Below, one piece after another: positions 19,036 to 29,733 of a stretch of 29,733 bases of DNA; position 1 is the first letter of the stretch; every line of letters begins with the position of its first letter. Origin of the DNA: a virus; the IMG/VR virus record IMGVR_UViG_3300030106_002370, positions 1-29,733 of that record, one strand, 5' to 3'. The notes beneath the pieces were generated by a model. The model did not search any database, was not told the DNA's origin, and saw only the letters and a program-made list of their open reading frames with translations. The translations under genes and the position numbers were made by a program.

Positions 19036-21780
19036 ATGGCAGAAGCTACACAAATAGCAGAAGAAGAAAAACCTGTTGAAGGGACTATTATTCGCGTTGA
19101 AACACCACAAGGAATTAAGCGTGTAGAAATTCCAGGAAAAGAACCCACAGCAGAACAACTACGGGTTATTAGAGACGCTTTTCCTGAGATTAGTACGTTT
19201 AGGAAACTTGCGTACGGCGTTCAAAGTACGTCTTCTGATGTGCAAAACCTTGACCTACTATCTAAAGCATTTTTTCCTCATCTAGTGGACCCTAACGATA
19301 AGCCAGAAGGCTTTGACGAACTCTCTTTTGACGAGAGACGAGACTTTTTATTTAAACAACGCGACGCGGAAATAAAAGAGAAGTACGCAGATGTTATTAG
19401 GGCAGGAGAAGACGACTCTGGTTTTGCTACAGTAGGGAGCTTCTTAGGTGCGGTACTTACCCCCACAAGCTTACTGCCTGTGGGAGCTACTTGGAAAGGT
19501 ATGGCAGGGATAGGAGCAGTACTTGGTGCTGAGTGGAATTTCCTGGATCAATTCGCAGAAAAGGGAGAGGTCTCTCCTAAAGAGGTTGCTGTATCAGCAT
19601 CGCTTGGTGGGGTACTTGCTCCTGCTTTTGGTGTTCCTATGCAAAAACTTGTGCGTCTTAGGCAAAAGAAACGGAACATAACCCTAAAAGAAAACCAAGA
19701 AGCGATCAATTTAGCAGAAGCGCGAAAACAAGCAGGAGAAGAGTGGGACGCAAAAGGTATAGTACAGGGTCCAGCGAGGCCAGTTAGGGAAACTAGAGAG
19801 CAGTACATTAACAGGACAACAGACTCTACAACAGACCAAGGAGTAGAGGCTGCTGTAGTTTCGGGTAGAAGGATAGAAAAAGAAGATCCTAGAGTAGTTG
19901 AGGCTGTAACTAGTATAGATAAAGGTTCACTAGCAACCGCTAGACGAATTAACTCAGGCCTCAGTGGTTTTATAGGTTCAGTGTCCGATACGATAGAGCG
20001 CGTAGGTGGACAACAGTGGAAAGGCTTGCTTCAAAGACACGATCAGGGTGTGACTAGAACACAAGGTATCTCTACGGAAATACCAAGAGAGTTTTTTAAA
20101 GGAGTTAAAAAACTAAGTCCAGAGGGCCGAAAAGAGGTTGATTTAAAGCTGCTTAATGGATCTCTTAACAGGACTGTTTTAGAAAGATTAAACTTTAGCC
20201 CGAAAGCAATAAAGTCTTTTGAGGAGTCTCAAAAACACCTTGACGAATTACACTCTCAGTTAGTGTCGTCTGGTGCGTTTCGTGACGGCGCAGGGTATTT
20301 GAAGAATTACTGGCCCCGACATGTTAAGGACATTGACGGTTTGCGAGAAACCTACCCCGAAGTGCAAAAGGCGTTGGCAGACGCTAAAAAGAAGAAGACT
20401 CTCAGCGACGATGAGGTACAAGCTATAGTACGAAGGATGATGCACAAGCAACAAGCTAGAGAAAAAAGAGTTCGTTTAGACGACAAAAGGCAGATACCTA
20501 GAGTTGATGAAGAGACGCTGCCTTTTTACGACAACATAGAATCTTCGTACACTCGGTACGTTATGTCTGCAAACGAGCAAATACAACTAAGGAAGACTTT
20601 TGGAGTACATAAAAAAGTAAACAAAGATAAGTCTTTGAATATAGACGAGTCTGTAGAAAGTCTGATTCGGAAGGAGGGTGGAGATTTAGCAGGAGAGCAG
20701 CTACAAGCTCTTTCAACACTTTTTAAAGCGCGGTTTGTAGAAGGAAATCAATCCCCTAACAAGCTTGTTCAGGGGTTACGTTCATCCATATACTTATCCT
20801 TCTTAACCAACCCAATTTCTGCGTTAACTCAGTTAGGAGACGTTGGTATTGCTATGTACACTCAAGGCGTAGGTAACGCCCTTCGTGCAGCTTTTGGGCA
20901 AAAACGAATAACGGTTGCAATGCAGGGGTTAGACAACGCGGTAGCAGGGGAACTTCTTACCGAGCTAGGGACAGCTAAGATGTTACACAAAGCCTTTACT
21001 ATCTCTGGCTTTAGGGCCATAGATAGGTTTGGTAAAGAGGTTTTAATGAACGCTGCTGTTAAGAAAGCGCAGAGACTTAGCAAAAGCGAGGCAGGTAAAG
21101 CAACCCTTAAGAAAAAATACGGGAAGTTCTTTGGCGATGAGTTTGACGCTTTGGTAGATGATTTGAACAGAGGTAAGATGGATAGTGAAAATGTCCTGCT
21201 GTACGCTTGGAGCGAACTAGCGGAGGCGCAACCAATCTCTCCTAGTGAATACCCTCTCAAGTATTTACAAATACCAAATGGAAGACTCTTTTACACTTTG
21301 AAAAGTTTTAGTATCAAACAGTTAAATCTTTTGCGACGCAGTATTGTAGACGAGTGGCAACATGGCAGTAAGAAGACGGCGTTAAAGAACGCCGTTGCTT
21401 ATTCTTTGTTAGTTCCAGGAGGAGCTACGGCTGTTTCTTACATAAAGGACGGGGTGTTAGCTAGAGACATGACGATTGACGATCTCCCTGATAGGTGGTT
21501 AGACCACCACCTTAGATTATTTTTCGGGTCTAAGTACTTGGTAGAGAAACAACGTAAAAAGCTAGATGCTGGAGAAATAGCTGCGGAAGTTTTTTTGCCT
21601 CCTGCTGACCACATAACCTCCGTAGGAAAAGCCCTTCTTGGGGACGCAGAAGAAAAGACAGAGGCGATTAAACACATACCTTTTATTGGCAAGCTTTTAG
21701 ACAACTACTACTTTGGTGGCAAAGAACGAGCAGACGAAAAAACTATGGACAGACGGATAGAACGCTTGCGAGGCTACTAA
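19036..21780 (+). CDS. Large internal virion (ejection) protein 3
   Basis: At 914 residues this is the longest product. It opens with a basic/beta stretch (EGTIIRVETPQGIKRVEIPG), followed near 130-185 by a hydrophobic Gly/Ala-rich region (SFLGAVLTPTSLLPVGATWK) and later by another hydrophobic part (LSFLTNPISALTQLGDVGIA near 577-596). The remainder is helical. The size, order and hydrophobic segments match the large internal protein that enters the host with the genome. I do not see a lytic transglycosylase motif, which T7 gp16 has, so a wall-cutting activity is not supported. Internal ORFs on the opposite strand are shadows. Confidence 0.75.
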   Translation: MAEATQIAEEEKPVEGTIIRVETPQGIKRVEIPGKEPTAEQLRVIRDAFPEISTFRKLAYGVQSTSSDVQNLDLLSKAFFPHLVDPNDKPEGFDELSFDERRDFLFKQRDAEIKEKYADVIRAGEDDSGFATVGSFLGAVLTPTSLLPVGATWKGMAGIGAVLGAEWNFLDQFAEKGEVSPKEVAVSASLGGVLAPAFGVPMQKLVRLRQKKRNITLKENQEAINLAEARKQAGEEWDAKGIVQGPARPVRETREQYINRTTDSTTDQGVEAAVVSGRRIEKEDPRVVEAVTSIDKGSLATARRINSGLSGFIGSVSDTIERVGGQQWKGLLQRHDQGVTRTQGISTEIPREFFKGVKKLSPEGRKEVDLKLLNGSLNRTVLERLNFSPKAIKSFEESQKHLDELHSQLVSSGAFRDGAGYLKNYWPRHVKDIDGLRETYPEVQKALADAKKKKTLSDDEVQAIVRRMMHKQQAREKRVRLDDKRQIPRVDEETLPFYDNIESSYTRYVMSANEQIQLRKTFGVHKKVNKDKSLNIDESVESLIRKEGGDLAGEQLQALSTLFKARFVEGNQSPNKLVQGLRSSIYLSFLTNPISALTQLGDVGIAMYTQGVGNALRAAFGQKRITVAMQGLDNAVAGELLTELGTAKMLHKAFTISGFRAIDRFGKEVLMNAAVKKAQRLSKSEAGKATLKKKYGKFFGDEFDALVDDLNRGKMDSENVLLYAWSELAEAQPISPSEYPLKYLQIPNGRLFYTLKSFSIKQLNLLRRSIVDEWQHGSKKTALKNAVAYSLLVPGGATAVSYIKDGVLARDMTIDDLPDRWLDHHLRLFFGSKYLVEKQRKKLDAGEIAAEVFLPPADHITSVGKALLGDAEEKTEAIKHIPFIGKLLDNYYFGGKERADEKTMDRRIERLRGY

Positions 21781-21997: not shown

Positions 21998-23647
21998 TTA
22001 GACTCCGCAGACTCCTCCATCACAGGGGTCGTACTCTTCGTAAACGACTCCTTTGTGTTTGATGGCCTCTTCGTAAGGGATTGAGGTAATGGGCTGTCCT
22101 CCCCTGCTTCCGTCTGGATAGCAGGTGAATCCTCTAAGCCTTGGCGCATACTCTGAAAGGGTTTTAGCGAAGCTCTTAACCTCATCATCTCCGATATTCT
22201 GTCCTGTTGGGAGGTTGATGGTTGAGGAGATGGATTGGTCAACATAGTCTTGTATGTCAGCTTGGAATTTAATTCGCTTTTCGGGTTGAGTAGAGAGGTC
22301 GTAAGCTGTATTGATAGCGGAAGGCTTAATTCCCAAAGTATCGATGAGTGTTTGTGCAGTTCCGTCAACAATGTACTCATACTTCCATCGAGTTCCTTCT
22401 GTGAGATACCGTCGCTTAAATGCAGTTGCAAACACTGGCTCAATGCCTGTCGTAGTTCCTGCGAGGATTCCAATAGTTCCTGTAGGGGCAATAGCCCTGT
22501 AAGCGATAGGGTGCGACAAATATAGTCTGTCGCAATGTTCGTTTGCTGCTCTAATAGATTCATCTTTATAGACTCCCAACCATTCATGTAGCTCAGGGGT
22601 AACTTCGTACTTAGAACCCCGTTTGAGCAACCACTCATGGATTCCCATGAGTCCTAATCCCAACCTACGATTCTTTTCCCTGATTGTTTTTACTTTCGGG
22701 TACGGTAGATCTGCGCGTACTGTTCCACAAACCAAGAACTTAGAAGCTAGGTTAACAATATCCTTAAACTCTTCTAAGCTTTCTACATTCCCTAAGTTAA
22801 TACTGCCTAAGTTACAAACGTCAGAATCATCTGCGCTTGTTACTTCTGTACAAGCGTTCCTTAATGTCTCTTCGGCTTGGTCCCCAAAGTTAAAAGAGAA
22901 CCCTGGTTCTCCAGTGATTAACGCTTGCTTAACATTTTCTAAGAATACAGGGTCTAAGTGTCGGTCCTCTTTTTCTAACCAACTATCACTGTAATTCACT
23001 GAGATATTGGTTTGGTCTAGGGGAGCAGGGAAATTAAAATTAGCTTCTTTAGCCTGTGATAAAGAAACATCATCAGTAACAGGCATGTTGTGCCAATCTT
23101 TAGCACAAAGAAACGCCTCTATATCTTCGTGGCCCTTGTCTAACGAAGCGTAAATAGCACTACGCCTAGAACCGCCCTGCATGACGTTACGGCCTATTTC
23201 GTTAATCATGTACATAAGGGGTAGGGGTCCACTAGAAACGCCCCCTGTGCGCGATAACGTGCGCCCTGAGGGGCGTAATTTAGAGTAGTCTATTCCTATC
23301 CCTCCGCCAAGCATTAAACAGCTATTAGCTCGCCATATTAAATTGGACCACTCTTCTCTGGTATCCTCTTCTGCTTTCAATAAAAAGCAGTTATTCCAAG
23401 CGTGTAACTTTCTACCTGCGTAGTACAGGTAGCGACCCCCTGGTATGAATTTCATTTGATCTATGTATTGAACTAATTGATCCCGTTCTTCTTTCCCTAA
23501 GATGGGGTGAGTCCCGTTCTCCATCGTACCACAAACATCTGAGACACACCGTATTGCTAGATTTCTCCAAGTGTCTTGTGCGCCTTGTGCGTATTTGTTT
23601 TTAAATACATTCTCTCCTAACGTGGTGCGGAAAGGGTTTGTTTGCAT
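21998..23647 (-). CDS. nrdJ: Class II (cobalamin-dependent) ribonucleotide reductase
   Basis: This 549-residue enzyme would reduce ribonucleotides to deoxyribonucleotides for phage replication, using adenosylcobalamin. Visible landmarks: NNCF with the first redox cysteine (C87), the active-site NACTE (C266, E268), the partner cysteine in DVCNLGSINL (C278), the phosphate loop APTGTIGILAGTTTGIEP near 405, and the C-terminal thiol pair CDGGVC (C542, C547). No class I radical-subunit gene lies nearby, and the TGTIGILAGTTTGIEP form fits class II. It is shorter than many bacterial class II enzymes, as phage versions often are. Its ATG overlaps the upstream stop (TAATG). It is the last gene of the leftward operon. 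Confidence 0.93.
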   Translation of the reverse strand: MQTNPFRTTLGENVFKNKYAQGAQDTWRNLAIRCVSDVCGTMENGTHPILGKEERDQLVQYIDQMKFIPGGRYLYYAGRKLHAWNNCFLLKAEEDTREEWSNLIWRANSCLMLGGGIGIDYSKLRPSGRTLSRTGGVSSGPLPLMYMINEIGRNVMQGGSRRSAIYASLDKGHEDIEAFLCAKDWHNMPVTDDVSLSQAKEANFNFPAPLDQTNISVNYSDSWLEKEDRHLDPVFLENVKQALITGEPGFSFNFGDQAEETLRNACTEVTSADDSDVCNLGSINLGNVESLEEFKDIVNLASKFLVCGTVRADLPYPKVKTIREKNRRLGLGLMGIHEWLLKRGSKYEVTPELHEWLGVYKDESIRAANEHCDRLYLSHPIAYRAIAPTGTIGILAGTTTGIEPVFATAFKRRYLTEGTRWKYEYIVDGTAQTLIDTLGIKPSAINTAYDLSTQPEKRIKFQADIQDYVDQSISSTINLPTGQNIGDDEVKSFAKTLSEYAPRLRGFTCYPDGSRGGQPITSIPYEEAIKHKGVVYEEYDPCDGGVCGV

Positions 23648-25035: not shown

Positions 25036-25595
25036 AACCAATCCTTAGGGAGTGTATTCCCTACGTCAGAAAGTATTTGATGCTTTTGGCACCAACCTGT
25101 GTACGTTAACTTATGCTTCTTGGTTATCCAGTTATCGTACATGAACAGCATTTTAAAATTGTCTCTGTGAATTACCTCAGAGGTTTCTAACACCGCTAAA
25201 ATTTTAGTTCGACCCGAACCGTCCCACCTTCCTTTGGCTTCCACCCATAGCTCAAGTTCTGGCAACCAGAAATCAGGAGTGTAAATAGCAAGACGACCAA
25301 CGTTAACTGAACCACAGTCGTTACACGTTCCTTTTCTAACAGGGTAGATATACGGTATTTGTTTAGGTTCATACTCAAAAGCAATTCCTCTTTTCAGTAG
25401 GTCTTGAGCTATCTCGTATTCATATTTGCTCTGGTAGGGAGCTATCAACTTGCGTCGTGCTCGTTTTGAACGGACAGTGGTCTGGGACTTTCCTCCATAT
25501 CCAAAGGAGGTCGCAGTTGAGGTTATATTTTTCTTTCCACGCCTCTTGGTAGTTCGCTTCGTAGTAGCTTTGGACCTTTTCTTTTGCTGTGGCAT
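25032..25595 (-). CDS. Endonuclease I (T7 gp3-like Holliday junction resolvase)
   Basis: This 187-residue nuclease should cut branched DNA before packaging and help degrade host DNA. The T7 endonuclease I active site is visible: SKYEYE (E59, matching T7 E20), YTPDFWLP (D108, T7 D55) and VEAKG (E119 and K121, T7 E65 and K67). A CNDC insert (91-94) between the strands is absent from T7. Residues 1-50 are a long Lys/Arg/Thr tail that T7 lacks, encoded entirely within the 3' end of the exonuclease gene (176-base overlap). No internal ATG precedes the catalytic core; a TTG at 25448 is possible but weaker. Confidence 0.9.
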   Translation of the reverse strand: MPQQKKRSKATTKRTTKRRGKKNITSTATSFGYGGKSQTTVRSKRARRKLIAPYQSKYEYEIAQDLLKRGIAFEYEPKQIPYIYPVRKGTCNDCGSVNVGRLAIYTPDFWLPELELWVEAKGRWDGSGRTKILAVLETSEVIHRDNFKMLFMYDNWITKKHKLTYTGWCQKHQILSDVGNTLPKDWL

Positions 25596-26316
25596 TTGTA
25601 ATTCCTTGTGGTAAATACCTTTCGGCCTTCTTCGGGCCGATACCTGGAATCCCTTCTATGTTATCTGCTCGATCTCCTTCAAGCATCTGCCTCCAAAACT
25701 TAATGTCTGCTTGTTCTTGGGTAACTTCTTGTATCTCTCCGCTAACTAAGTTGAGATGAAACCCTGGTATTTGTTTCAAGTCTTTGTCTATGCTTCCTAT
25801 AATGGGAACCCGCCCATTCTGTACAGCATCCAAACAACCTTGACCAAAGAAATCGTCTGCCTCACAGCCTTGGCTAACCTGCGCTGCGTGTCGTTTTATT
25901 AAATAATTTTTTAATTCTTCTAAGTGGGTAGGTCTGTGGTCTTTGTCCCTATTCGCTTTATAATCTGGCGTTAATTCTTTTCTAAAGTTAGGGGTTTGGT
26001 CGTTTCCTGAGAGGTAGGTAATGTACTCTAGGTCGTCTGTTTGGAAATGCGTTGTTACGTTTTGTAACGCTGTTTGTATGAGGGACTTGCAGTTATATAA
26101 GGCGTGGTCTAAGGGTTCTGTGTTTCGTTCCCACTTTAAATACTGCTCTGGAACATTTAACTTAGCTTCTTTTTTGCTAGGAAAAGAAAGCCCCCCATCG
26201 CTGGGGGGATTCCTCTCGTCAAAGTAGATACGCTTTTCGGCTCCAAACCCTGCCCTATAGCAAAGAATGTCACCATCGAGGAGGAGCGTGTATCCACTAA
26301 GACTAACTTGAAACAC
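25420..26316 (-). CDS. 5'-3' exonuclease (T7 gp6 / flap endonuclease-like)
   Basis: The roughly 298-residue nuclease would remove RNA primers and degrade DNA from 5' ends. It shows LLLDGDILCYRAG near the N-terminus (first acidic residues), FRKELTPDYKANR, CEADDFFG, GSIDKDLKQIPG, and GDRADNIEGIPGIGPKKAER, the metal-binding and helix-hairpin-helix segments of the FEN/PolI-exonuclease family, in the right order. No ATG precedes the first motif: GTG 26316 or TTG 26322 must be used, both inside the end of the upstream gene. The last 58 or so codons overlap the endonuclease gene, but LLWIWRK shows the overlap is still genuine exonuclease sequence. A strong hairpin lies within the gene at 26191-26208. 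Confidence 0.9.
   Translation of the reverse strand: MFQVSLSGYTLLLDGDILCYRAGFGAEKRIYFDERNPPSDGGLSFPSKKEAKLNVPEQYLKWERNTEPLDHALYNCKSLIQTALQNVTTHFQTDDLEYITYLSGNDQTPNFRKELTPDYKANRDKDHRPTHLEELKNYLIKRHAAQVSQGCEADDFFGQGCLDAVQNGRVPIIGSIDKDLKQIPGFHLNLVSGEIQEVTQEQADIKFWRQMLEGDRADNIEGIPGIGPKKAERYLPQGITNATAKEKVQSYYEANYQEAWKEKYNLNCDLLWIWRKVPDHCPFKTSTTQVDSSLPEQI
26181..26208 (-). terminator. Terminator-like GNRA hairpin inside the exonuclease gene
   Basis: Read leftward, CCCCCCA (26208-26202) pairs with TGGGGGG (26197-26191) around the tetraloop GCGA, and CTTTCTTTTC follows directly. A seven-pair, nearly all-GC stem capped by a GNRA loop and followed by a T-rich tail is a standard intrinsic terminator. 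It is in the sense direction within codons for PPSDGGLSF, so it may attenuate transcription of the distal replication genes. Confidence 0.5.
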
Positions 26317-26812
26317 CTTCAAAAGCTTCGGAGTAAACCGAGGCGTTTTTCTCTAGGGTGGGATCAGACCCTGGGCGCTTCATGCTATCGGTATCCCCAC
26401 TTGTCCAGCCTTCAAACAGCTTCGCTATTTCAAGAACCTGCTCTGGACTGCTCTCTGGGGTGCAATAATTAACAGCGTTTGTCAAAGCGTTTTGGCGCAG
26501 TATCAACCTCTCCCTGGTGAGAGAAGGTTCGCCCTTCTTAGCACTAGGAAGAGGGGATACGGCAGCCCTATTCGGTTGTGGATCTGGCGACCCTGCGTGG
26601 ATTGTTAGATTTCCCCTTAGATTTTTGTAAACCTTGTTGGGGTCGTTCTTATCTTGCTTGGTCGCGAACATAAAAGATACACTATCTCCTGCTTTCGCGC
26701 CACAAAGTTGTTCAGGGTTAAACGCCGAGTACCAACTAAAGTCACCCTCTAATTGAAAACTTGTACCTCTATCGCCAACTTTACTGATTACTCCTGATAA
26801 CTGCTCTGCCAT
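26303..26812 (-). CDS. Putative single-stranded DNA-binding protein
   Basis: The 169-residue protein starts with a beta-rich stretch (SGVISKVGDRGTSFQLEGDF, then SVSFMFATKQD) compatible with an OB fold, followed by a Pro/Ser-rich linker (about 75-95) and a helical part with TRERLILRQNALTNAVNYCT and EVLEIA-like sequence (EQVLEIAKLFEGWTSG). The combination is what I recall from marine phage genes that occupy the place of T7 gp2.5 between polymerase and exonuclease. The acidic tail typical of gp2.5 is not obvious. TAGGAGA eight bases before ATG and its own upstream promoter suggest high expression, as an SSB needs. Confidence 0.65.
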   Translation of the reverse strand: MAEQLSGVISKVGDRGTSFQLEGDFSWYSAFNPEQLCGAKAGDSVSFMFATKQDKNDPNKVYKNLRGNLTIHAGSPDPQPNRAAVSPLPSAKKGEPSLTRERLILRQNALTNAVNYCTPESSPEQVLEIAKLFEGWTSGDTDSMKRPGSDPTLEKNASVYSEAFEGVSS

Positions 26813-26840: not shown

Positions 26841-26868
26841 AAAATACACCTTTATGCGTTAGTGTCAA
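26841..26868 (-). promoter_or_regulatory. Sigma70-like promoter before the SSB-like gene
   Basis: Reading leftward, TTGACA (26868-26863) is a perfect -35, and TATTTT (26846-26841) is a four-of-six -10 at 16-base spacing. The -35 overlaps the stop codon of the polymerase palm gene, and the start would be near 26834, just before the ribosome site TAGGAGA (26827-26821). This 52-base gap is the longest intergenic space on the minus strand, which supports a real promoter for the downstream replication genes. Confidence 0.6.
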
Positions 26869-27674
26869 GAACTTTTTTTAACCTCTTCCAATGTGCGTCC
26901 AGAGGCATAGTCTACAGGGAAGGGGATAGGAACAGATATTTCAAATAGCTTTTCTATCTCCTCTCCTACCCCTTCCAACGCTCTCTTGGTACGGTGGATA
27001 ACTTCTTCTGCTTGATCTGTTACTTCTAGTAACACACTGTCATGCACAGTGTTACAAATAGTAGCACTTGTGCCGATCAAGGCTCTGTTTAATCTGTTCA
27101 AAGCGAACATCATAATGTCAGAAGCAGCTCCTTGGATGGGGTAGTTCTTGCATTTCGTGGGACTAATCCTATAGTCGTCTGCCCAAGGGGGTTTCTCAGC
27201 TACAAGTCGAAAGTAGCTGATTGCTTTTGAGGTGATAGGGTGTTTCCAAATAGACGGGATGTAATAACTAGGGACTGATTCAAAGTTAACCTCATCTCCT
27301 CTGTGTTTTAGGGTTATGTTGCCACACTCTAACATCTGCTTTTGCCAAGAAAGGACAGAAGGGTATCGAGAAAAATACTCTTTGATAAAGGTACTCGCTA
27401 ACTCTTCGTCAACATTCCAGTGCTTAGCTATGCCTTTGGCTCCTGCCCCGTATTGAAGTTGGAAAGAGAAACCTTTTGCTAATCGTCTCTCTTGAGGAGA
27501 GATCTCACTTTTGCGAAAAATTCTTTTAGCAAAATGATTGTGCATGTCCATGCCAGAACCAATGTCTTCTATCAGTTGATGATCTCCTGTGGCTAATGCC
27601 AGCACGCGAATTTCTAGCTGTGCATAATCAAACTCATAGAACATACGGTCTGTTTTAAAGTGTGACAAAATCAT
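26865..27674 (-). CDS. Family A DNA polymerase, palm/fingers half (split gene, part 2)
   Basis: The 269-residue product contains the whole polymerising site: motif A DYAQLEIR (D16), motif B RRLAKGFSFQLQYG (R63, K67, Y75) and motif C HDSVLLE (H211-D212), plus NYPIQGAASDI. The residue matching E. coli position 762 is Phe (F71). It lacks the exonuclease and thumb, which the preceding gene supplies. Its ATG overlaps the previous TGA as ATGA, with AGGGA seven bases upstream. Family A polymerases normally are one chain, so the two halves either associate or are joined by frameshifting. A sequencing error of one base is the dull alternative. Confidence 0.9.
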   Translation of the reverse strand: MILSHFKTDRMFYEFDYAQLEIRVLALATGDHQLIEDIGSGMDMHNHFAKRIFRKSEISPQERRLAKGFSFQLQYGAGAKGIAKHWNVDEELASTFIKEYFSRYPSVLSWQKQMLECGNITLKHRGDEVNFESVPSYYIPSIWKHPITSKAISYFRLVAEKPPWADDYRISPTKCKNYPIQGAASDIMMFALNRLNRALIGTSATICNTVHDSVLLEVTDQAEEVIHRTKRALEGVGEEIEKLFEISVPIPFPVDYASGRTLEEVKKSS

Positions 27675-28831
27675 TGGCTTTTCCCTGAGATGTTTTGCAT
27701 ATTGGGTTTCGAGCTGCTTAGTCTACCCGTTTGTGTTATGCAATGATTGTAGCTGGGGTGAATCCTCCCCTTAACAGCAAAATCTATATACGGTTTGAAG
27801 TAAGTGTTAATTGTTTTGGAAAGATTCCTAATCTCCAACAACTCTCTGCAAAATGCGTGAGCATTGCTATCTCCAGGCAAGCTGAGTATTCGGTTTATAG
27901 TTTGTGCTCCTGATGTTTTTTCCCAACCCTTGTTAACAAACTCTTGACTAATATCGTCTTCGCAGAGTGGTTCAACATCGTGGTAACGATCTTCTTTTCG
28001 GGTTTTCTGTTGGCCTTTCTTCACCCCACCTTTAAACAAAACGGGTTCTCCCAATTCATCTGTAAGGGGAACGTCAGTTTTATAACGCACCTCTCTGCCC
28101 CAAAGGAGAGCCGTCACTTGAGAGGAAGAAAGTATGTTTAAAACTCCTAATTTTTCGGGCCAAAAGGCGCTATAGGTTCCAGTCGTATACTGTATTTTAT
28201 AGGCTAGTTTATTTTCCAATTCCGTAACTTCTTTGGTAGCACTTGTTTTATCGAAAGGCAAACCGTTATGCGCCATCTTGGTCGTAGCAAAAATTCCATC
28301 CATCATGTGTTCAAAGTATTGTGTTTTGTACGGGTCGCCTTGTAAGAAGGCGAGTTGATCTTGGAATAAGGTTTGAGTTGCTCTAACATCTTCGTATAAA
28401 TAATTGCGTAGTAGCGTAGGGTCTATCTTGTCTGACCCAATCCCAACTTTAAATCGTTCTTTTATTTCAGTGTCTTTCTCAAATGGAACATCAAGTCTCT
28501 CACAGGTATTTTCTAAGCTAGGACTTACGATAGACCGCCCTGTCCAGAGGTATTCAAATTTCTGTGTGTCCCAAATGCTGCATCGAGAGGGGAAGTTATC
28601 CATTTCTCTCATAAGATAATGCAAGTCAAAGGATAGATTATGTCCTACCAACAATGTGTCCTCGTCTATTAAGAGTTCGTTGGGGTCGCTTGTGTGGGTC
28701 AACGGGTAATTGTCTGCGATATACCCTATCATCACAGAACGATTACCTGGGTAAGCAGGGCTGGCCCCGAAGTGTGGTTGTGGGGCGTTAATCGTAGTTT
28801 CAATGTCTAAAATTATAATGCTATAGGGCAT
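27671..28831 (-). CDS. Family A DNA polymerase, 3'-5' exonuclease/thumb half (split gene, part 1)
   Basis: From ATG 28831 the product is 386 residues; CGGGAGA about nine bases upstream supports this start over a TTG at 28882. The proofreading site is complete: ILDIETT (D9, E11), VGHNLSFD (N65, D69) and NYLYEDV (Y144, D148). The chain then runs through a helical thumb to RIHPSYNHCITQTGRLSSSK and PNMQNISGKSQ, where family A enzymes normally continue a dozen or so residues to motif A. Here a TGA stops the frame and the palm half starts at the overlapping ATG. The helicase gene overlaps its start by 11 bases. Confidence 0.9.
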   Translation of the reverse strand: MPYSIIILDIETTINAPQPHFGASPAYPGNRSVMIGYIADNYPLTHTSDPNELLIDEDTLLVGHNLSFDLHYLMREMDNFPSRCSIWDTQKFEYLWTGRSIVSPSLENTCERLDVPFEKDTEIKERFKVGIGSDKIDPTLLRNYLYEDVRATQTLFQDQLAFLQGDPYKTQYFEHMMDGIFATTKMAHNGLPFDKTSATKEVTELENKLAYKIQYTTGTYSAFWPEKLGVLNILSSSQVTALLWGREVRYKTDVPLTDELGEPVLFKGGVKKGQQKTRKEDRYHDVEPLCEDDISQEFVNKGWEKTSGAQTINRILSLPGDSNAHAFCRELLEIRNLSKTINTYFKPYIDFAVKGRIHPSYNHCITQTGRLSSSKPNMQNISGKSQ

Positions 28832-29733
28832 ATTTATTTCTCCCGTCTCTCTGACTATAAAACTGAGCTGTTGATTTATCAAGGTTTATCGCAGCTCCCT
28901 GGCTACGGTAATCGTCATTCGCGTATGGGAGTTTATTCTTTGGTGCGCGGATAAATCTCACGTTGGGTTCTTCTTTGGTCTGACCAATTAAAATGATAGC
29001 GTCAGCTTCACCTTGAACAGAGGTCTTACTATTGTATAACGATCCCATGTCTGCGTATTTCTTGTTCTCTGCTGTCGCATCAAGCTGAGAGGCTCCAATA
29101 ATGGGGCCGTACATTTTCGCTAAGTCTCTAACATACTGAGCGAGTTTAGCGTAGCGATCTACTCCAGTTTTTTCGTTCTCAAACCCACCTAGTTTCCATA
29201 GCTGGTCGATGATAATTACCTTTGGATGGTAGGCTTCAAGCACACTTTCTATGTCGTGGACGGTCATACCTGATTTATCTAGGGAAATGATTTTGTTTTT
29301 TCCTAGCCTATTTTGATAGGCTTCAATAGCTTTCTTCGGATCTGCGTCTAACTCACTTCTTGTCCAGTGTAAAGCAGCTTGAATTCTACGGGCTGCCACA
29401 CGTTCCCTGGGTTCCTCGTTGTTACACCACAACACACACTCACCTTCTTTGAGCTGTGTCGCAAAGTGGCAAGCGGCTTGAGCTAAAAAAGTAGTCTTGC
29501 CTCCGTCTGGTCTGCTACCCAGTAATAAAAAATCTCCTTTCCCGATTGGACCTAACATTAAATTCAACTCCTCTAAAGGCCAGGAGTATCGTATGCCTTC
29601 TTTAAGTGAGGAAACCTGCGTTAATACTTGATCGTCTGTCGTTGTTAAACTGTCTTCGTCTTGGCGAAGATCGCGGAGATTTAATTTCATTTCTTGAAAC
29701 AGGTCAAGTAGGTCTGAAACTGGACAAAGCCCG
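28821..29733 (-). CDS. DnaB-like replicative helicase, N-terminus beyond window
   Basis: The RecA-fold core shows GSRPDGGKTTFLAQ (Walker A, near K65 counted from ATG 29690), WCNNEE with a catalytic-type Glu, VIIIDQLWKLGG (Walker B) and IIGASQLD (sensor), the order of DnaB/gp4 hexameric helicases. The frame stays open past ATG 29690 to the window edge with helical sequence (PVSDLLDLFQE), and that ATG has no good ribosome site, so I treat the gene as cut by the edge. Alternatively ATG 29690 is the true start; a different frame ends there as ATGA. It would unwind DNA ahead of the split polymerase. Confidence 0.85.
   Translation of the reverse strand, partial: GLCPVSDLLDLFQEMKLNLRDLRQDEDSLTTTDDQVLTQVSSLKEGIRYSWPLEELNLMLGPIGKGDFLLLGSRPDGGKTTFLAQAACHFATQLKEGECVLWCNNEEPRERVAARRIQAALHWTRSELDADPKKAIEAYQNRLGKNKIISLDKSGMTVHDIESVLEAYHPKVIIIDQLWKLGGFENEKTGVDRYAKLAQYVRDLAKMYGPIIGASQLDATAENKKYADMGSLYNSKTSVQGEADAIILIGQTKEEPNVRFIRAPKNKLPYANDDYRSQGAAINLDKSTAQFYSQRDGRNKYAL

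Follow-up and report, generated by a model that had tools for sequence, protein, structure and literature searches.

Split DNA polymerases are already known from bacteriophages, in family A from MEP401 and MEP402 and, as an active enzyme, in family B from T4-like phages. For the OM43 phages MEP401 and MEP402 and most of their group, split polymerases have been reported and an intron was suspected (PMC10580990). The family B case is the bipartite gp43 of Aeromonas phages 44RR and 25, a two-chain replicative polymerase with a homing endonuclease or a spacer at the seam; gp43A and gp43B of phage 25 purify together and polymerise, and the split NrdA of Aeh1 is functional as well (PMC2988022). In podoviruses of the LUZ24 type, family A polymerase functions are carried on separate genes, gp25 being annotated as the exonuclease subunit and gp34 as polymerase part II, although the break there, to judge from the annotations, apparently falls between domains. 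A survey of virioplankton PolA did not mention splits.

Here we describe a split family A polymerase in a stretch of 29,733 nucleotides from IMG/VR virus record IMGVR_UViG_3300030106_002370 (the window), which belongs to an uncultured, probably marine phage. It is highly probable, in our judgement, that the window codes for one family A replicative polymerase made as two polypeptides, with the tail of the first docking on the second, and that the split had its origin in a mobile gene. New are the window's lineage and its ATGA seam free of inserts, evidence that speaks against an intron and a frameshift, the break that the window has in common with the Vibrio phages ICP2 and VP41s3, a series of relatives in which the seam is an insertion hotspot, and the prediction of a docking tail.

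One family A DNA polymerase is encoded in two halves by two minus-strand genes, 27671-28831 and 26865-27674. The first (the N-half) runs from an ATG at 28831 to a TGA at 27671; its product of 386 aa ends in ...GRLSSSKPNMQNISGKSQ (the last residues are also written ...CITQTGRLSSSKPNMQNISGKSQ) and comprises the 3'-5' exonuclease domain, the thumb and the first palm segment with its TGR ... NMQNISGK tail. The second (the C-half) runs from an ATG at 27674 to 26865; its product of 269 aa begins with MILSHFKTDRMFYEFDYAQLEIRVLA... and comprises motif A, the fingers with motif B, motif C and the remaining palm. The stop and start codons share the 4 nt ATGA (27671-27674), and a Shine-Dalgarno-like AGGGA (27682-27686) lies seven bases 5' of the C-half ATG. 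Both elements are present as claimed in the initial annotation, as are the catalytic motifs that it had assigned to the two halves. The three 3'-5' exonuclease motifs (DxE, NxxxD, YxxxD) occur in the N-half as DIETT, NLSFD and YLYEDV, together with TGR/NMQN; D148 and Y144 are invariant among 22 sequences, and the match to Pfam exo1 is just under the cut-off. The C-half contains the family A motifs A (DxSxxE-like; FDYAQLE), B (RxxxKxxxFxxxYG; RRLAKGFSFQLQYG) and C (HD; VHDS), and in an alignment of 25 sequences D212, H211 and K67 are invariant and D16 nearly so. The C-half matches Pfam DNA_pol_A with 1.5e-37, and the two halves cover complementary parts of this model, N-half 55-134 and C-half 151-260 of 381. 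In PHROGs they match phrog_9556 (8e-44) and phrog_2573 (1e-39), respectively, both of them families of stand-alone halves that are also matched by the halves of MEP401 and ICP2. A single polypeptide, which is usual for family A enzymes but not strictly defining, is replaced by two genes in the window and in 36 IMG/VR relatives.

Profiles of the N-half and the C-half were aligned to the Klenow fragment to place the break. The N-half profile reaches the Pro of NLQNIP, at chain index 357, and the C-half profile begins at index 368; if the fragment begins at residue 324, these correspond to Pol I residues 680 and 691. The C-half profile would then start before D705, a catalytic residue of E. coli Pol I. 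Placed in this way, the break interrupts the palm; the TGR/NxQN segment precedes it and motif A follows (E. coli Pol I ~680-691). The position between the NMQNISGK segment and motif A given in the initial annotation is thus correct, but its description as a boundary between thumb and palm is not, as the cut runs within the palm. A break between NxQN and motif A, with halves that match phrog_9556 and phrog_2573, is also what characterizes split PolA of the Zobellviridae type. Little or no sequence is missing at the break, since the residues from NxQN to motif A add up to 27-41 in split forms and to 36-43 in comparable fused ones.

A DNA-level search of a phage collection gave no match, and protein searches were therefore used. 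With the C-half as query the locus L001 was found, and a subsequent profile search yielded 56 IMG/VR loci, all of which were scored for both halves. Of these, 36, on independent contigs and from many metagenomes, have a split polymerase, as do six phages in the databases (ICP2, ICP2_2013_A_Haiti, VP41s3, MEP401, MEP402 and MW202697). The close relatives of the window are, every one, metagenome contigs; a scan of GTDB genomes found neither a close relative nor a host. L001, the nearest relative, comes from another metagenome and shares 70% amino acid identity in the C-half. It has the same ATGA, which is also identical in L003, L004, L006-L008, L015, L018, L021, L023, L024, L030, L034 and L035, and most relatives have an SD-like sequence 5' of the C-half start. 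In a maximum-likelihood tree, whose long branches make the deep nodes unsure, the window's clade comprises 35 rows, of which 34 are split and one is fused; within this clade the same break is kept down to ~31% identity. A comparison of the window with L001 shows saturation at synonymous sites. Where dS was measurable, dN/dS ranged from 0.02 to 0.17 in both halves, and purifying selection on each of them is strong.

These data bear on whether the split is an artefact of sequencing or assembly, or a recent frameshift mutation private to this phage, in what is otherwise a normal single-chain gene. The halves adjoin and are one base apart in frame, as such an event would leave them, and the one fused member of the clade, L029, differs from its sister L026 by a single junction base. 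Against this, the break recurs in 36 other contigs from many metagenomes as well as in the six database phages, and the start codon and SD-like sequence have been kept while synonymous divergence between the window and L001 reached saturation; we regard such an event as extremely improbable. By all indications of the sequence comparison the split is no sequencing error, its recurrence being far beyond chance, and represents an old two-part arrangement. The initial annotation had preferred a natural two-chain polymerase to a random frameshift, and the comparison of stop and start codons among related genomes, with the same split in 34 of 35 clade rows and the ATGA recurring in L001 for example, bears it out.

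The fused polymerase (L029:1155-3179) is a single chain that lacks one junction base relative to L026. A relative in which one base joins both frames had been named as the case that would speak against a natural split, and it exists this once. However, L029 branches within the split clade, and at the position where fused enzymes have PR it retains SGK, the residues typical of the split lineage. A secondary fusion, or an error in that contig, is therefore the best explanation. On either account, its single chain is a sign that both halves are parts of one enzyme.

Among described phages, the Vibrio phages ICP2, ICP2_2013_A_Haiti and VP41s3 (Zobellviridae) have the break at the same place as the window (NLQNISN followed by the stop, then MSDIKRC..). 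They differ in that their identity to the window N-half is 32-34% and that they form a separate branch nearer to the fused T7-like enzymes. Their seams contain an HNH gene in ICP2, 9 nt in ICP2_2013_A_Haiti and an 88-aa ORF in VP41s3; the ICP2 record annotates one gene joined across the HNH ORF, whereas the Haiti isolate has two adjacent genes. MEP401 and MEP402 (Zobellviridae-like, OP830906 and OP830907) likewise have a family A polymerase in two genes, with the exonuclease and the first part of PolA in the N-half. Their break, however, lies ~18 residues further downstream (N-half end ..DGEIKTLFLSRYGE, C-half start MILNADAKALEW), a 77-aa ORF separates the halves, and they belong to a clade separate from that of the window; the break of MW202697 is also ~18 residues off the place used in the window and ICP2. 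We did not adopt a single origin for all splits, since break positions differ between the MEP401 type and the ICP2/window type and the tree needs three changes. The bipartite gp43 of 44RR and 25 is of family B, with another break place and another lineage.

The genes around the polymerase form a replication operon, and MEP401 and MEP402 have the same helicase-polymerase-exonuclease-endonuclease-phosphoesterase-RNR module. Upstream in the operon is a DnaB-like helicase gene (28821-29690, minus strand; Pfam DnaB_C, phrog_19), just beyond which the record ends. Next downstream are genes for a conserved 169-aa protein (26303-26812, minus strand; phrog_18140), with orthologues in L001, L003 and L004, and for a 5'-3' exonuclease (25420-26322, minus strand; Pfam 5_3_exonuc_N, phrog_107). 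The phrog_18140 protein, of 166-169 aa, stands between the C-half and the exonuclease in the window and in these three relatives; its N-terminus looks beta-rich, which makes it a candidate ssDNA-binding or polymerase accessory protein. The exonuclease gene overlaps that of a T7-like endonuclease I by ~176 bases in different frames (25420-25595), and as this overlap is also long in L001 (~170 bases) and L004 (~227 bases), it appears to be conserved. The replication module also includes a ribonucleotide reductase (21998-23647), of which the barrel domain is recognized and a match to the B12-dependent insertion domain is below the cut-off; a 221-aa ORF overlaps the 3' part of this gene on the same strand. 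A 914-aa protein without a PHROG match (19036-21780) stands at the end of the structural module.

The two-ORF layout would be only apparent if programmed -1 ribosomal frameshifting yielded a full-length polymerase. The window and 16 other junctions do have the second ORF in the -1/+2 frame relative to the first, open for 0-78 nt upstream. The in-frame slippery site, the stimulatory structure and the conserved frame relation of a programmed frameshift are nevertheless all lacking. The window junction, GGGAAAAG, contains no -1 slippery heptamer in the reading frame; the junction RNA folds no better than shuffled sequences (z +0.8), and a stimulatory structure was not found. Among 26 insert-free junctions the C-half start occurs in all three frames relative to the N-half stop (17, 6 and 3), so that other relatives have a +1 or 0 relation. 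The C frame is open upstream for only 6 nt in L001; in L030 it is open for 0 nt, a TAA codon lying in frame directly 5' of the C-half ATG, and in ~16 loci whole genes stand between the halves. Because the frames vary and genes intervene, programmed frameshifting is effectively excluded for the family as a whole, and we consider it extremely unlikely. This goes beyond the earlier argument that frameshifting was less likely for want of a proper -1 heptamer, which was sound. Predicted sigma-70 promoters and terminators near the seam were at chance level only.

The ~16 loci with other genes between the halves have inserts of up to 1.46 kb. These are a 193-aa HNH endonuclease (L010, L012, L013, L014, L020 and L041), a 185-aa MT-A70 methyltransferase (L019), an 89-aa ORF (L009 and L016), multi-gene blocks of 1.14-1.46 kb with DUF3310- and MazG-like ORFs (L022 and L027) and a short ORF (L046); the database phages add the HNH gene of ICP2 and the ORFs of VP41s3, MEP401/402 and MW202697. 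The HNH, methyltransferase and 89-aa inserts begin on the N-half stop (TAATGA) and end no more than a few bases from where the C-half begins. Since the inserted genes fill the distance from stop to start, the C-half must initiate by itself in these relatives, and the simplest reading is that the C-half of the window is likewise translated from its own start.

The same geometry bears on a spliced intervening sequence, intron or intein, at the seam. Such elements do occur nearby: gene 31 of SPO1, also a family A polymerase, has an HNH-carrying group I intron near the same conserved codons (GRLSSNEPN/AQQFP), and the ICP2 record joins its halves across the HNH gene. The SPO1 intron differs in being spliced, so that one chain is restored, and in its site 6-8 codons upstream, whereas in the window nothing separates the halves, which overlap by 4 nt, and no intron lies between exons. 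In the HNH, methyltransferase and 89-aa loci the inserted ORF occupies the stretch from N-half stop to C-half start, so that a ribozyme core would not fit, and neither half has room for intein ends. At gathering thresholds Rfam detected no introns in 12 insert loci, but missed the known SPO1 intron as well; a permissive search was therefore used, and lack of space remains the main argument. In permissive mode six insert loci were negative for introns, while the SPO1 intron, as positive control, was found. We consider splicing at the seam very unlikely, although a splicing element may have been the origin of the split.

The inserts reveal how readily the contents of the seam change. The C-half genes of L009, L010, L012-L014, L016, L017, L019 and L020 are 94.6-100% identical at the DNA level. 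Within this group four junction contents are found at one nucleotide: none (L017), HNH (L010), methyltransferase (L019) and the 89-aa ORF (L016), despite ~95% nucleotide identity of these four C-halves. As near-identical genes hold four contents at one position, the seam is an insertion hotspot, probably one seeded by homing endonucleases. The intron point of SPO1 gene 31 (L084:2085-2932) is 6-8 codons from the split site. This proximity suggests that HNH elements repeatedly target the same conserved polA DNA, and makes the conserved seam DNA a known kind of homing target. A second insertion site may follow the C-half: in L003 a Dcm-like cytosine methyltransferase gene (L003:7000-7974) lies directly 3' of it with ATGA coupling, and the near relative L004 is without this gene.

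Structure models are consistent with two parts of one enzyme. The AlphaFold2 model of the C-half (pLDDT 92) shows a palm plus fingers fold and matches Bst Pol I in Foldseek (TMq 0.74). That of the N-half (pLDDT 88) is confident for the exonuclease and thumb and matches the family A Klenow, T7 and phiVC8 polymerases, so that palm, fingers and thumb are all accounted for. (Aligning the fused L029 with separate halves misaligned most N-halves, and it was left out of the folding.) Residues 362-386, which form the C-terminal tail of the N-half (NHCITQTGRLSSSKPNMQNISGKSQ; 27674-27748, minus strand), have pLDDT < 50 when modelled alone, which could also reflect the shallow alignment of 22 sequences. 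No other stretch of the protein is as conserved (0.86 vs 0.49 elsewhere). In single-chain enzymes this segment is part of the palm and touches the primer-template. Because the tail is a palm segment that is predicted to be unfolded alone and yet the most conserved, we infer that it binds the C-half in trans, most likely docking on the palm and thereby completing the active site, and that DNA synthesis requires both halves.

The N-half and C-half might instead be independent proteins, an exonuclease or primer-template factor and a truncated polymerase. Each is a complete gene, and phages of the LUZ24 type do hold exonuclease and polymerase parts apart. However, the cut through the palm leaves the proofreading exonuclease, the thumb and the TGR/NxQN primer-template segment on the N-half, and both catalytic aspartates and the fingers on the C-half. 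The conserved tail without a fold of its own and the joining of both halves in L029 also argue against independence, which we find scarcely credible. The preferred reading is one enzyme, presumably an obligate heterodimer with a joint activity of the halves. Ribosomes would finish the N-half at the TGA and then begin the C-half at the overlapping ATG, either by re-initiation, that is translational coupling, or through its own Shine-Dalgarno sequence; the overlap, the SD-like sequence and their conservation are observed. The N-half tail would then dock on the C-half palm to give the heterodimer. The split itself probably goes back to a mobile gene, for instance a free-standing HNH endonuclease, that inserted into the seam, where the DNA is conserved and codes for a loop, or else to an intron there that lost splicing. 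As the window seam is without an endonuclease, its homing-endonuclease origin is deduced from the relatives. These likewise suggest an order of events in which the insert was later lost or swapped, the seam staying a cassette site, and loss of the insert left the tight ATGA.

In a wider sense, and only tentatively, uncultured and largely marine phages may have stably replaced a single-chain family A polymerase by an obligate, palm-cut heterodimer, at least twice and at nearly the same place, the cut being selected as a docking site for mobile or cargo genes (HNH, methyltransferase and others) and assembly being set by translational coupling. The reported oddity of split polymerases with suspected introns in OM43 phages can now be treated as a two-chain enzyme whose seam is mapped and which is open to test, and for the window and the insert-bearing relatives an intron and a frameshift are no longer tenable readings. 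A naturally split family A polymerase is also a possible tool. Metagenomic PolA surveys that use full-length models or single marker residues would miss or truncate such phages. The four seam contents in near-identical genes amount to a natural experiment on how mobile genes make essential genes into pieces.
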